NCBI GenBank assembly: GCA_031261785.1
Contig: JAISIZ010000019.1
Span: forward strand, 36,860 to 100,859
DNA: 64,000 nt
DNA from: Mediterranea sp. (in: CFB group bacteria)
GTDB taxonomy: Bacteria > Bacteroidota > Bacteroidia > Bacteroidales > Bacteroidaceae
Direction of reading: 5' to 3'
A program made the position numbers and the translations under genes. The notes under the pieces were generated by a model. It did not search any database. It was not told the DNA's origin and saw only the letters and a list, made by a program, of their open reading frames with translations. Below are positions 7,021 through 60,035 of this stretch, one piece after another (the stretch's first letter is position 1; every line of letters begins with the position of its first letter).

Positions 7021-7153
7021 GCTCTTCCTTGGCCAATTCCAAGACACCGCCGTGAAAGTTGGAATGCTGTCCATTAGAAAGTCATTTAAAAGAAGTCGTG
7101 TCAATCTTGATCCTATTTATTTAAAATTAGTGGTCTGTACCTGGTGAAATGCT

Positions 7154-7463
7154 TATCCGATTTCAGGTGAGACTTTCCCCGGCCGGTTATTCTATCACCT
7201 GATTTCAGGTGGGACTTTCCCCGACCGGTTATTCTATCACCTGATTTCAGGTGGGACTTTCCCCGGCCAGTTATTCTATCACCTGATTTCAGGTGATGCT
7301 TTCCCCGACCGGTTATTCTATCACCTGATTTCAGGTAAGTCTTTCCCCGACCGGTTATTGTCTTACCTGATTTCAGGTGAGACTTTCCCCGACCGGTTAT
7401 TGTCTCACCTGATTTCAGGTGAGACTTTCCCCGACCGGTTATTGTCTCACCCGATTTCAGGTG
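7154..7463. repeat. Tandem array of 8 palindrome-centred units, exact 42-bp period
   Basis: CACCTGATTTCAGGTG palindrome repeated at 7154, 7196, 7238, 7280, 7322, 7364, 7406 and 7448, with conserved linker GACTTTCCCCGACCGGTTATT. Confidence 0.95.
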
Positions 7464-7582
7464 AAGCTTTCCCCAGCGAACTCGAAGCATTTCATTCGCG
7501 AAAATGGAGAAAGTCTTCGATATTTCTCTTTTTTGCAAATATTTTAGATGCCTGATTAGCCGCGAAGGCTTTTAGATACTAC

Positions 7583-54819: not shown

Positions 54820-56004
54820 ATGAAGCGATTGTTGCTGTTCGTGTGCGCGACGGGTTGGCTCGCCCCGGTAGCCCTCCTCTCGCAACCCGCCGGGGAAGAG
54901 ATCCCCTGGCCTTCGGCCGAGAAAGGATACGAGATCAGGCTCGGGATGCCGCTCTTTCTCGACGAGTTGAAGAAAGAGCTGACCTATCCGCTGGCCTGGG
55001 GCAACGCGCCCGAGACGGATTTCGCGGCCTGGCGGGACAAGGCGCGCGCCGCCGTTTTCGACGCCATGCTGGCGCCCCCTCCCCGCGCCGCAGGATACGA
55101 CATCCGCGTCACTGGCGAGGAGCGGCGCGACGGCTACCTGGCCCGTAAGCTCAGGTTCAACCTCAGCGCCTACTCGCGCGTGGAGGCCTACGTCCTCATC
55201 CCCGACGGCGAAGGGCCGTTCCCGGCCGTGACGCTCCTGCACGACCATGGCGGACACTACACCATCGGCAAGGAGAAGATGGTTCGTCCGTTCGGCGTCC
55301 CCGCCGAGGTGCTTGCCGATGCCGACGGCTGGGCCAAGCAGTGCTATGGCGGACAATACGTGGGCGACTACCTGGCCCGCCAAGGCTACGTGGTGATTGC
55401 CACCGACGCCCTGTTCTGGGGCGACCGCGGCCGCGAGGAAGGCAACCAACCCAAGGACGGGCGCCACCTGGCCGACGTGGCGGGCAGTTTCTACATGCTG
55501 GGGCGCAGCCTGAGCGGCTACATGAGCTACGAAGACATGTACGTGGCCGAGTTCCTGTCCACCCTCCCCTTCGTCGACCCCGCGCGCATAGGTTGCATGG
55601 GCTTCTCGATGGGCGCGTACCGGGCATGGATGCTCGCCGCCCTCACCGACCGCGTGAAGGCCGGCGCGGCCGTCTGCTGGATGGTCACCACCCATTCGCA
55701 GCTGTCGTGGCAGCATGGGCGCGAGCATGGCGGCTTCGTCAACCAGCTTCCCGGCATCCGCCGTTACCTCGACTATCCGCACATCGCCTCCATCGCCGCC
55801 CCCAAAGCCATGTTCTTCCTCAATGGCGAGCGCGACAAGCTCTTCGCCCCCGACGGCGTGCGCGACGCGTTCGCCACGATGCGCCGGGCGTGGGAGAGCC
55901 AGTCGGCCAGCGACCGCCTGCGCGCCGAGCTGTGGGACATGCCCCACGACTGCGGCGTCAAGGTACAGGCGGCCGTGCTGGAGTTTCTGAGGAAGTGGCT
56001 GTGA
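54820..56004 (+). CDS. Alpha/beta hydrolase (dienelactone hydrolase / acetyl-xylan esterase-like), secreted
   Basis: Signal peptide; LLHDHGGHY; GFSMGAYRAW nucleophile elbow. Confidence 0.82.
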   Translation: MKRLLLFVCATGWLAPVALLSQPAGEEIPWPSAEKGYEIRLGMPLFLDELKKELTYPLAWGNAPETDFAAWRDKARAAVFDAMLAPPPRAAGYDIRVTGEERRDGYLARKLRFNLSAYSRVEAYVLIPDGEGPFPAVTLLHDHGGHYTIGKEKMVRPFGVPAEVLADADGWAKQCYGGQYVGDYLARQGYVVIATDALFWGDRGREEGNQPKDGRHLADVAGSFYMLGRSLSGYMSYEDMYVAEFLSTLPFVDPARIGCMGFSMGAYRAWMLAALTDRVKAGAAVCWMVTTHSQLSWQHGREHGGFVNQLPGIRRYLDYPHIASIAAPKAMFFLNGERDKLFAPDGVRDAFATMRRAWESQSASDRLRAELWDMPHDCGVKVQAAVLEFLRKWL

Positions 56005-58360
56005 CTTTGCTTTTCTCGATGTGTTCAAAGCGAACATACGGTGGATTCCCAATCACTACATCGAAGCCACCTTTATACTCTTCCCGAAAAGCGTAATCGT
56101 AATCGCAGGTCATATCGGAAATCACCGCAGCAAGGGGATTCATCCCCTTGCTCCTCCCGCACCCGCCCCCGCACCCGCACCCGCACAATTCGCCCGATTT
56201 ATTTTTGTTTAAACGATTATTGTCGATGTCGGCGTTATCTGTTGGATTCGCAAGGGGATGAATCCCCTTGCTGTGGTCCATACCATGTTTGACGCGGTTG
56301 TTTCGGATGTATTCGATGGCGTTTTGCAAATGTTCATCGGACCTTATCTCTATGCAACCATATTTCTGCGTCCAAAGTGAAATGGAGCGTTCGCCCTCGT
56401 TCTTGACAAGGGGATTCATCCCCTTGACCTGGTGGTACGCACGAGAGGAACGACCTTTTATCTTTTTTACAATGTCCACAATCTCTTCCTCCTCGCACAC
56501 CAACAAAAGATGTAGGTGGTCACGACAGATATTGTAAGCCAGCACGTTCAGCTTGTCCTCTTTGACAATGTCGGCAATCGTTTGAGTGATAATGAGTTCG
56601 TCTTCTCCGCTCAATGGATGAACTTGAGGTTCGGGCAGCGTCCCGTTAAAGCGTTTCTCTCGAACCTTATGCTTTATCATTCGTTGGGAAGTGCGACTAT
56701 CGTGTATAGCTGTCACAATGTGGAATGCTTTCTTGTTTTTGGGCTTGAAGACCAGAGGAAACTCTTTATGCCAATCGAATGCCTTGTCGCCGGCAATTAG
56801 AGAAATTCCGCATTTGATGTTATTATTGAGCGAATTGAGCTTACGATGCGGTTGTGCGGTGCGAAGCCAAAGGGTAAGTTTGGCTATTTCCACACTTTCT
56901 TCATTGAGACCTACTCCATAGAGGTTATTTTCCAGAATCGTATTCTCTATATGGGGGAACACGATGCTTGAATCGAAGATCTTGGTGTTTAGCTCGTCGA
57001 TATAATGATGTTCTTTCATCAGGAAGTCGAGTGCCGCATTCAAGAAAACGCCACTGCCGCAAGCGGGGTCGCATATCGTTAGGGATAATAGCCATTCTCT
57101 ATATGTATTGAGAATGTCGAGCAGGTGTTGCTTTTGCTTCTTTGTTCGGTCCTTGTCAATGAAGAAGTCGGTGTCTATAAGATTGAGTTTGGCCTTCTTG
57201 TCCGCACAGAGTTTGCCTAAGGTGTTTTCTATGATATGTGTGGGGATATGGCGCAAGGGGGGAAAAAGGCGGTCTTTTTGGGGGGTGGAGGTGGAGATGG
57301 TGGTGGCGGTGGTTTTTGGCAAGGGGATGAATCCCCTTGCTGTTTGCGCGGTTATCTTTTCTATTTCTTTTAAATTGTTTTCGAGTATATGCTCCAAGAT
57401 GTTTATATTGACTTCTGTATCGTAATTGTACGAAGAGAGTTTCAGAATATTGTCTTTTAAGATATGGTCACTGAAGAGCAGGCTATCCAGTACGTCATCT
57501 GTTTGGAATAGTCCACCATTATAACCAAAGATATCTTCTTTCTTTCCTTTATGCCCTATATCTATATAATGGAAGTATAGGGCTAAACGGCTGTACAAAG
57601 GTTGATACTTATGGAGTGGATCGGCATTGCGCTCTTCCCATTGTTCAATGATGCGCTGCATGGAGTTTGGTGGGAGTAGTCCCTTGTCTTCGGCGAAGAA
57701 TGCGAAGAGCAATCGGTCGAGTGCTTTCTGGGTTTTGCGGAAAAGGAGTAATTTGTCAACCGTTGGGTTATTTTTCGTAAGGTCTTCAAACAAAGCTCGC
57801 TTGAACGCGGAGTAGTCTTTATATAATTGTTTGGTGATATGTTCCTCTGTACGGGTTGACTCGGCTTTCAAGCGTTTGGGTAAGTCGATGGAAAGATTAT
57901 CGTAAGCCAGACAGAGCCACATCGTGGCGAAATCGTCTTCCGATAAATTGAATAGGTGGAACTCCTCGTAGTCAATGGAATTGTCTATGTAAAAGCGCAG
58001 CTTCTCAAAATTGGAGGTAATGACGTAGGGAGTGTTCAAGTTGTTATTCTTATAGCCGAACGCCTGAGCTTCGATCTGCTTCAAGTCGGTGATTTTATGG
58101 TCTTTTAGCTCAATTACGGCTTTCACCGCTCCATCAACGAGAATCGCGCCATCCGCCTTTTGGGCATCCGTTACATGCTTTCTCTCGGTTATCAGATTGT
58201 AGTTTGGAGAGGGATTGAGTGTATAGCCAAGCACTTTCACGAAGAGTTCCCGTAGGAAGGCCTCTTGAAACTGTTCCTCTTTGCCGTCGCGGATGTTCGT
58301 TTGGATCGCAGGGTCAAGAAAATAGGCGGCATAAGTCTGGTAGGCGGCGTGTATCTTCAT
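55958..58360 (-). CDS. Eco57I-like type IIG restriction-modification methylase with embedded HUH/Y1 RAYT-like transposase domain, truncated after NPPY
   Basis: MTase motif I DPACGSGVFLNAALDF and motif IV GGFDVVIGNPPYVRFEHIE, separated by a RAYT-like segment with RDHLHLLLV (HxH) and AIEYIRNNRVKHG; the ORF ends 27 aa after NPPY in antisense of the neighbouring hydrolase. Confidence 0.82.
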   Translation of the reverse strand: MKIHAAYQTYAAYFLDPAIQTNIRDGKEEQFQEAFLRELFVKVLGYTLNPSPNYNLITERKHVTDAQKADGAILVDGAVKAVIELKDHKITDLKQIEAQAFGYKNNNLNTPYVITSNFEKLRFYIDNSIDYEEFHLFNLSEDDFATMWLCLAYDNLSIDLPKRLKAESTRTEEHITKQLYKDYSAFKRALFEDLTKNNPTVDKLLLFRKTQKALDRLLFAFFAEDKGLLPPNSMQRIIEQWEERNADPLHKYQPLYSRLALYFHYIDIGHKGKKEDIFGYNGGLFQTDDVLDSLLFSDHILKDNILKLSSYNYDTEVNINILEHILENNLKEIEKITAQTARGFIPLPKTTATTISTSTPQKDRLFPPLRHIPTHIIENTLGKLCADKKAKLNLIDTDFFIDKDRTKKQKQHLLDILNTYREWLLSLTICDPACGSGVFLNAALDFLMKEHHYIDELNTKIFDSSIVFPHIENTILENNLYGVGLNEESVEIAKLTLWLRTAQPHRKLNSLNNNIKCGISLIAGDKAFDWHKEFPLVFKPKNKKAFHIVTAIHDSRTSQRMIKHKVREKRFNGTLPEPQVHPLSGEDELIITQTIADIVKEDKLNVLAYNICRDHLHLLLVCEEEEIVDIVKKIKGRSSRAYHQVKGMNPLVKNEGERSISLWTQKYGCIEIRSDEHLQNAIEYIRNNRVKHGMDHSKGIHPLANPTDNADIDNNRLNKNKSGELCGCGCGGGCGRSKGMNPLAAVISDMTCDYDYAFREEYKGGFDVVIGNPPYVRFEHIEKSKVTATSSETPARPPVP
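56131..56150 (+). repeat. REP-like palindrome copy 1 CAAGGGGATTCATCCCCTTG
   Basis: Exact; translated as KGMNPL on the minus strand. Confidence 0.95.
56160..56186. repeat. Hexanucleotide CGCACC-type tandem repeat in coding sequence
   Basis: cacccgcccccgcacccgcacccgcac, encoding GCGCGGGCG. Confidence 0.8.
56251..56270 (-). repeat. REP-like palindrome copy 2 CAAGGGGATGAATCCCCTTG
   Basis: Exact; translated as KGIHPL. Confidence 0.95.
56407..56426 (+). repeat. REP-like palindrome copy 3 CAAGGGGATTCATCCCCTTG
   Basis: Exact; translated as KGMNPL, inside the RAYT-like domain. Confidence 0.95.
57320..57339 (-). repeat. REP-like palindrome copy 4 CAAGGGGATGAATCCCCTTG
   Basis: Exact; translated in a different frame as RGFIPL. 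Confidence 0.95.
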
Positions 58361-58511
58361 GGTACAGGCAGCTGTTTGTCTTTTTAGGATGTTATGTTGG
58401 AATAAGGGCATCTGCTATATATTGGAAGACGACAAGGAAAAATTCCGCGTGAATAAGCGCGAATGGCGCGGATTCCTTCCGTTGGGAATCCGCGCCATCT
58501 CTGTCGCTGGC

Positions 58512-59378
58512 TTAGGCAAGCGGGTCGGGTAGTTCATCCTCGCCGCCGCCGGTCGCGCCGCCGGTGGGTCCTCCGGTGGTGCCGCCGTCGCCAGGCGTAG
58601 GTGTCGGGGCGACGGGATCGGGGATTTCCTCGCCGCCGGTGCCGCCGGTGCCGTTGGCGGGATCCGTGTCCGGGGTCTTTTCTTTCGCGTCGGCCGGTTG
58701 CTTCCGCTGGTAGTCGATCAAGCCGTTCATGCCGTCGATGCACGGGTTGTATTCGGTGGTTCGCTCCACGACCACGAGGGCGTTGATGCGCTCCACCACC
58801 GCCTTATAGGCATCGTCCACCTCCTTGCGGGCCGCCTTGGCCGCGCCGGGCAGCTTTTCGCTCTTCTCGTCGTTACGCTTGTAGATGGCCTTGCGCAAGG
58901 TGTCGTTGCTGCCGCGCATGATTTCGACCAGCGAGCCGAGGTTGAGTTCCTCCACCTCGGCCTTGTACTTGCTTTCCAGCTCTTTGAGCAACTTCGTCAT
59001 CAGTCCCGTTTGCTTGTAGAAAGGCGCACGGACGTCGATGTTGTAGTCCTTCAGAGCTTGCCAAAGTCGTTGCCCGGCCGATCTCATCTTCTCCTCCGGG
59101 ATTTTCACGAATGTCTTCACCGCGTTGCGGAACAAGGTGTAAGCGTTGTCGCGCACCGAGTCGGCTTCCTTGATCTCGTCGGTCAGGAAGCTCTTCCTCG
59201 AGAGCGCCAACAATCTCTCCTCTTCCTTGAAGGCTTTCTCGTAGGCCTTCAGTTCGTCGGCGACTTTCGACTTCACTTTCGCGTCGCCGTTCAGACGCTC
59301 CAGCATTTCGTAATGAAAAGCGTAGTGCGTTCCGTTACTCAGCTTCGGTAAGCTGATGGGTTTGATCTTTTTCATCAT
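58512..59378 (-). CDS. DUF6261 family protein
   Basis: 288 aa; helical, KPISLPKLSNGTHYAFHYEMLERLN, Gly/Pro/Thr-rich tail. Confidence 0.75.
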   Translation of the reverse strand: MMKKIKPISLPKLSNGTHYAFHYEMLERLNGDAKVKSKVADELKAYEKAFKEEERLLALSRKSFLTDEIKEADSVRDNAYTLFRNAVKTFVKIPEEKMRSAGQRLWQALKDYNIDVRAPFYKQTGLMTKLLKELESKYKAEVEELNLGSLVEIMRGSNDTLRKAIYKRNDEKSEKLPGAAKAARKEVDDAYKAVVERINALVVVERTTEYNPCIDGMNGLIDYQRKQPADAKEKTPDTDPANGTGGTGGEEIPDPVAPTPTPGDGGTTGGPTGGATGGGEDELPDPLA

Positions 59379-59481: not shown

Positions 59482-60035
59482 TTCTTCGCGAGAAGAACGG
59501 CTGACCAAAAAGTTTCGGCGAAATTTCCGCGAGGAAATCGGGCGAAAAAAAATGTTTGGCCCTGTTTCCGCTGAGAAATTATGCCCTGCAACATGTTTTG
59601 GTCAAATTTCCTCCAGGAAATGTCATGAAACATTTTGTTCACGCAGATTTCTTCTGAGAAATTATGCCCTGCAACATGTTTTGCCCAAATTTCCGCCAGG
59701 AAATTATGCCCTGCAACATTTTATCGCAAATTTCCGCGAGGAAATCAGGCGAAAAAAAATGTTTCATGACATTTCCGCTGAGAAACCGGCCCAAAAACTT
59801 TTTTTCGCCACTTCGACCGCGAGGAAATCATTCCAAAAAAATTTTTTGGCCACCTCGACGCGGGGAAATCGGCCCTGAAAAATTGCTCGGCACCGTTTCC
59901 GCGAGGAAATCACAGCAATAAAATGTTCTCATCACGTTTCCCCGCAGAGACAATTCCCCAAAAAGTTCCTCACTGCCATTCCCTGCGGAAACAGCCTTTC
60001 AAAACTTCCCGAAGCTTGTCACCCCGAAGAAACAC
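59482..60035. repeat. Tandem array of about 14 palindrome-centred units, about 41-bp period
   Basis: Core ATTTCCGCGAGGAAAT-type palindromes near 59482, 59523, 59563, 59604, 59646, 59687, 59728, 59770, 59811, 59852, 59894, 59935, 59977 and 60017. Confidence 0.92.

Follow-up and report, generated by a model that had tools for sequence, protein, structure and literature searches.

Among the described systems that pair repetitive extragenic palindromes (REPs) with REP-associated tyrosine transposases (RAYTs, also TnpA_REP), subclass 2.4 of TnpAY1 (Quentin et al. 2018), found in Bacteroidetes and Cyanobacteria, comprises proteins with a median length of 194 residues and the motifs NH[IFV]H and YIxNNP, whose own tnpA_REP genes contain in-frame REPs, in most cases in the stretch from the HUH to the tyrosine motif (PMC6006769). 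Intragenic REPs were also described in 2013, in work devoted to GTAG- and CGTC-tagged repeats (PMC3733652), and both phenomena are already published; how RAYTs spread REPs, and how RAYTs benefit their hosts, are still open questions (PMC6006769). Here we analyse a stretch of 64,000 nucleotides from Mediterranea sp. (assembly GCA_031261785.1, contig JAISIZ010000019.1, positions 36,860 to 100,859 of the forward strand; hereafter, the window), in which four copies of one palindrome lie in the gene of a restriction-modification (R-M) enzyme of Type IIG that is truncated and contains a RAYT-like domain. Comparison with relatives makes it quite probable that this is a REP/RAYT system with its transposase as an in-frame domain inside a Type IIG restriction-methylase, seeding its own gene. 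As far as found, an R-M enzyme that contains a RAYT and is colonised by the REPs of that RAYT is new: no open-access paper was found that joins Y1_Tnp with Eco57I, or TnpA_REP with a Type IIG enzyme, and the main text of PMC6006769 makes no mention of methylase, methyltransferase, restriction or Eco57I.

The 20-bp palindrome CAAGGGGATKMATCCCCTTG occurs in four exact copies, all within a single open reading frame (ORF; Table 1), at precisely the positions given in an earlier note made from the sequence of the window. Its spacings of 120 and 156 bp and the alternating orientation of the core are correct, and the frames and peptides that it read hold on the coding strand, three copies sharing one frame and the copy at 57320 using another. 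In line with the note, which had noticed none, no further copy of CAAGGGGATKMATCCCCTTG occurs in the window with up to three mismatches (0.02 expected by shuffling). The genome-wide count that it had proposed, made like all our genome-wide counts by pattern search, places AAGGGGATNNATCCCCTT at these four sites only in the whole 3.77-Mb genome, all in one gene, and in none of 100 congeneric genomes.

The earlier note had described the host as a transposase-bearing gene with a methylase; this stands, but the host is more than a methylase, namely a Type IIG R-M enzyme. The window protein matches the PADLOC model REase_MTase_IIG (E 3.9e-186, residues 1-556) and the Pfam Eco57I, MmeI and Y1_Tnp domains. 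The order comprises (i) the Type IIG part, (ii) Y1_Tnp, and (iii) the methylase, resumed at GGFDVVIGNPPY; as an insert, the RAYT-like domain separates methylase motif I from NPPY, and the ORF stops soon past NPPY. The best transposase model, NCBIfam REP_Tyr_transpos (NF047646), scores 54 bits, below its cut-off of 80, and we therefore label the domain RAYT-like, a divergent embedded type; the NCBIfam IS200 model gives 30 bits (cut-off 55), and a fold search matches IS200/IS605 transposases and the REP-bound RAYT 4er8 (E 5.1e-6). The RAYT catalytic residues are intact in the window copy. Its R-M function has probably been lost by decay, because the C-terminal half is gone (with no match elsewhere in the genome, in a search run without a positive control), some positions conserved in relatives are changed (e.g., FYTP to FPPL), and the gene sits on a long branch of the host tree.

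Relatives were gathered by order- and phylum-level searches and a scan of species genomes, the latter giving 209 stretches that encode a relative of the RAYT domain; the 80 listed come mainly from Bacteroidota, with a few from Chlorobiota, Ignavibacteria and Neomarinimicrobiota. After removal of duplicates, 104 distinct RAYT-bearing R-M genes, most of them bacteroidotal and all collected via the RAYT domain, were analysed, and in most relatives the domain lies within a long open frame. In a 38-sequence alignment, the HUH histidines, the tyrosine and the Y+4 asparagine are invariant, as are D, E and K of the D...ExK triad of the PD-ExK-like nuclease, and the methylase motifs are (nearly) invariant. 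Judged by sequence, the family is Type IIG, with nuclease and adenine methylase in one chain and, in intact relatives, a C-terminal specificity region. A congeneric genome (G066) encodes an intact relative of 1294 residues with the same insert (domain 51% identical), whose palindromes differ in sequence and partly in position from those of the window gene, and all lie within the open frame. Carriage of the gene by plasmids or viruses was considered and rejected, with no match among the plasmids or the viral contigs searched.

Perfect palindromes, defined by arms of at least 8, a loop of at most 4 and a G+C content of at least 40%, number 235 in the 104 RAYT-bearing genes (347 kb; 0.68/kb), against 0.10/kb in the flanks of these genes and four in 106 kb (0.038/kb) of 34 RAYT-less homologues, two controls not matched for base composition. 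Synonymous-codon shuffling predicts 10 palindromes, and a chance origin is rejected by this null and by the other shuffles. Three of the four palindromes in RAYT-less homologues are CAAGG/CAAAGG-type REPs in a genome (G540) that has an embedded RAYT too, where the REPs appear to spread in trans to further genes. Among 229 mapped copies, 104 lie inside the RAYT domain, mostly between the HUH and tyrosine motifs, 36 at the methylase re-entry and 89 elsewhere in the R-M enzyme, with over half outside the RAYT domain. The earlier note had proposed checking whether homologous genes bear different in-frame palindromes; they do, at partly different sites. At one site that L083 and L089 share (about residue 540), with the same flanks in both genes, the REP core is ATTTAT in one gene and ATAAAT in its counterpart, as though the palindrome had been inverted where it stands.

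The sequence of the palindromes tracks the RAYT. Palindromes are alike within a gene (mean distance 3.5, versus 7.0, sd 0.28, after label shuffling), and the REPs of a RAYT domain are similar to the other REPs of its gene (2.7 versus 6.8; 0 of 1000 permutations). Between genes, the similarity of REPs outside the RAYT follows RAYT identity (rho -0.40; 0 of 1000 permutations), also when the re-entry site is excluded (rho -0.28; 0 of 1000), and tracks neither methylase nor nuclease identity (rho -0.02 for the host methylase), as expected of cognate REPs. Among 309 genomes from the order, 27 have an embedded RAYT, and 21 of these show the REP pattern, compared with 22 of the 282 without (Fisher p 1e-15), with the proviso that simple p-values count related genes and genomes as separate and that the permutation tests leave some shared ancestry. 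On these comparisons of sequence, the embedded RAYT is associated with a specific REP family of its own.

The strong bias in their reading frame makes it probable that the copies undergo translation and are sifted by selection, which probably acts on the protein: the 126 copies that are open in all three frames comprise 82 in the RG, 39 in the KG and five in the QG frame (p 4e-16), a bias that could partly come from constraints on the flanking bases. In a structure model of one relative (mean predicted local distance difference test, pLDDT, 77.9; predicted template-modelling score, pTM, 0.41; domain arrangement unsure), the REP peptides map to coil segments or to their margins.

Of 205 pattern matches in 37 genomes, 92 fall in the RAYT-bearing gene examined. 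The genome G066 has 37 copies; where these lie outside the gene, they mostly fall between ORFs, and its CAAGG/CAATGG REPs include several REPIN-like inverted pairs with a TAG foot, spaced by about 44-55 bp. With a REP taken for this purpose as a short hairpin with 5' GT[AG]G, the 5' foot is TAG on copies of G066, both within the gene and beyond it, CAG on three of the four window copies, and mostly AA/GA elsewhere. In another genome (G784), REPs lie in frame in one recurring loop of several large ORFs (L201-L205) that by eye resemble SpoIIE-type phosphatases, which suggests that REPs have spread in frame through a paralogous family more than once.

The RAYT domain resembles a cassette that R-M genes exchange among themselves, always at a single, fixed in-frame position. 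RAYT-less homologues read FPxVF-KGGFDVV at this site, and one of them (L240), 70-78% identical to L103 and L119, is also without the REP peptides that those two carry. RAYT identity correlates only at 0.14 with that of the methylase (0.14-0.20 with the host), versus 0.59-0.76 for host segments among themselves. In addition, L131 and L047 share 87% DNA identity in the cassette, compared with 63% before and 54% after it, whereas the methylase segments of L069 and L142 are 85% identical and their RAYTs just 22%. Two REPs outside the RAYT of L131 are of the type paired with another RAYT group (L061, L068), apparently remnants that a former cassette left behind. On the host tree (FastTree), RAYT-bearing genes are scattered, with 15 changes, and a single origin of the insertion is unsupported by that tree. 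A further-reaching proposal, drawn by analogy, is an intein-like but non-splicing cassette, in which an HUH transposase domain homes to a fixed in-frame site of Type IIG enzymes and swaps between these, with its REPs seeding and remodelling host loops; we regard it as speculative, possible but rather unlikely.

In the mechanism that we propose, the RAYT domain would recognise the hairpin of its cognate REP on single-stranded DNA and copy or paste the REP. Many of the surviving REPs are in the gene itself, at loops and in frames that the protein tolerates, and further REPs occur as intergenic pairs or within loops that belong to other proteins. On this reading, the RAYT cassette also passes from one R-M gene to another at the fixed in-frame site, with the REP type travelling along. 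Comparison shows the architecture, the enrichment, the frame bias, the host-independent co-variation of RAYT and REP, the empty REP and cassette sites and the exchange of the cassette; that the embedded RAYT catalyses REP movement, and does so on single strands, is what we infer from them. The concentration of copies in the gene may reflect local movement, tolerance or recent gene transfer. The self-contained REP/RAYT system colonising its own gene, suggested in the earlier note, gains support from the enrichment, the tracking of the RAYT, the co-occurrence in genomes and the empty sites in RAYT-less sisters, with mobilisation as the inferred step.

Several observations weigh against such a self-seeding system. 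REP movement was not observed, the evidence being comparison by sequence, and a clean presence/absence pair for one REP among near-identical genes was not found; the best candidate (L126 versus L142, about residue 422) lies in a variable linker, and near-identical genes mostly have their REPs in common. The net length difference at occupied sites is often less than the 20-22-bp palindrome, and therefore replacement or imprecise events must occur, and simple insertion is not the whole story. The window gene has four copies only, with none elsewhere in its genome. The REP pattern is missing from six of the 27 genomes with an embedded RAYT and present in 22 of 282 without a detected one; among the genomes of the order search, G791 has 26 pattern matches and no embedded RAYT detected, which could be due to a diverged RAYT or an assembly gap. 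Many of these genomes, that of the window included, encode other Y1 proteins, and the scattered presence of the RAYT on the FastTree host tree would fit gain or loss alike.

These other Y1 proteins bear on the possibility that a separate RAYT moves the REPs and that the gene merely tolerates them, its Y1 domain being domesticated as a DNA-binding part. Cases are known in which REPs have invaded unrelated genes without breaking the frame (PMC3733652), and those in the SpoIIE-like ORFs of G784 are also in frame; nevertheless, we consider this explanation unlikely, since the embedded RAYT is the only Y1_Tnp match in three REP-bearing genomes (32, 1 and 1 copies), the separate RAYT of G066 is flanked by a different REP of its own, the variation of REPs outside the RAYT follows the embedded domain and not the host, and RAYT-less homologues are nearly REP-free. 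Passive amplification, in which gene conversion, template switching or hairpin slippage would spread and homogenise copies without a transposase, could account for the tandem duplications of a REP unit with its flank (33-bp repeats in L045), the likeness of copies within a gene and the differing core orientation in L083 and L089. It leaves unexplained the dependence on the RAYT, the RAYT-specific REP sequence and the dispersed genomic copies with several inverted pairs, and is improbable.

The palindromes might instead be ordinary coding or regulatory motifs, a selected KGxxPL peptide or a messenger RNA hairpin, and not mobile DNA. The palindrome in the HUH-Tyr loop is indeed found in most homologues, and the reading frame is non-random; however, synonymous shuffling leaves just 10 of the 235 palindromes, one palindrome read in different frames gives different peptides (KGINPL, TRGLIPL, QGGMPPC), the sequence is gene-specific and alike within a gene, and these palindromes are also found in intergenic DNA and within genes of unrelated kinds. 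An ordinary protein motif is thus rejected by the synonymous-codon null and the differing reading frames, and the explanation as a whole is highly improbable. Of the two signs by which the earlier note would have recognised ordinary motif DNA, one is seen, in that the palindrome is restricted to this gene in the window genome, and the other is not, since sequences and several sites vary among homologues.

Table 1. Features of the R-M gene in the window (positions are those of the window)
Feature	Position	Strand	Remark
Truncated Type IIG restriction-methylase with embedded RAYT-like domain	55958..58411	-	817-codon ORF
PD-(D/E)XK-like nuclease motifs KADGAI ... VIELKD	58097..58156	-	Putative nuclease, assigned by motif
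REP-like palindrome RGFIPL	57320..57339	-	Linker ahead of methylase; second recurrent site
Methylase motif I DPACGSG	57047..57067	-	(Nearly) invariant residues in 38-sequence alignment
RAYT cassette, in-frame insert between FPLVF and GGFDVV	56069..56743	-	RAYT-less homologues: FPxVF-(xK)GGFDVV
HUH/Y1 (RAYT-like) domain	56282..56734	-	Y1_Tnp E 1.5e-12
HUH motif in NICRDHLH	56507-56530	-	
REP-like palindrome KGMNPL	56407..56426	-	HUH-Tyr loop; commonest site in family
Tyrosine motif EYIRNN	56294-56311	-	
REP-like palindrome KGIHPL	56251..56270	-	Directly past RAYT domain; site common to many homologues
REP-like palindrome KGMNPL	56131..56150	-	Between RAYT domain and methylase re-entry
Methylase GGFDVVIGNPPY (motif IV)	56033..56068	-	Past cassette

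The window contains other repeats. An array of eight palindromes of the TCACCTGATTTCAGGTGA type occupies 7153-7464 with a regular 42-bp period (15 strand matches versus 0.05 expected), and tandem repeat arrays of about 42 bp with TTTCCGCGAGGAAA-like inverted cores occupy 59565-59884, directly upstream of a DUF6261 gene (58512-59378).

The locus unites transposase, host enzyme and REPs in one ORF, with copies few enough to count, and about 100 natural variants carry different REP sequences, some of them in cultured strains (Chlorobaculum thiosulfatiphilum DSM 249, Algibacter pectinivorans DSM 25730), which makes RAYT-REP specificity and REP gain directly testable. The system suggests a mobile element that remodels the loops of the defence-type enzyme that carries it.

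Compared to REP/RAYT systems or REPtrons, the family shares (i) an HUH/Y1 domain with both histidines, the tyrosine and the Y+4 asparagine, (ii) short hairpins of RAYT-specific sequence, (iii) intergenic inverted pairs with a TAG foot in G066, and (iv) the co-variation of REP and RAYT, but the RAYT, elsewhere a separate gene, is here an in-frame domain of an R-M enzyme, and the REPs are few and concentrated in the gene that encodes it. As in subclass 2.4, REPs lie in frame within a transposase-coding gene, often between the HUH and tyrosine motifs; however, the embedded domain, DHxH plus YIxxNR, lacks the motifs that define that subclass (Y---NP, NH[IFV]H; Table 1 of PMC6006769), its tyrosine motif contrasting with the Y---NP of class 2 as a whole (PMC6006769), and it lies inside an enzyme of about 1200 residues with most REPs outside the RAYT domain. 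In-frame translation at tolerated protein positions is common to intragenic REPs and Rickettsia palindromic elements (PMC3733652), which occupy unrelated host genes, whereas the main host here encodes the probable mobiliser. The enzyme itself resembles Type IIG and MmeI-like (IIL) proteins in its PD-ExK-like N-terminus, helical spacer, DPACGSG and NPPY methylase and, if intact, C-terminal specificity region, and differs from them in the RAYT cassette and the REP-encoded loops, the window copy being truncated in addition. In contrast with IS200/IS605 elements, the domain sits inside a long ORF and not in a stand-alone transposase gene bounded by subterminal hairpins. By analogy, a nuclease-type domain at a fixed in-frame site of a conserved enzyme, with a history decoupled from that of its host, would recall inteins and other homing cassettes, with the difference that the RAYT domain appears to stay in the protein.
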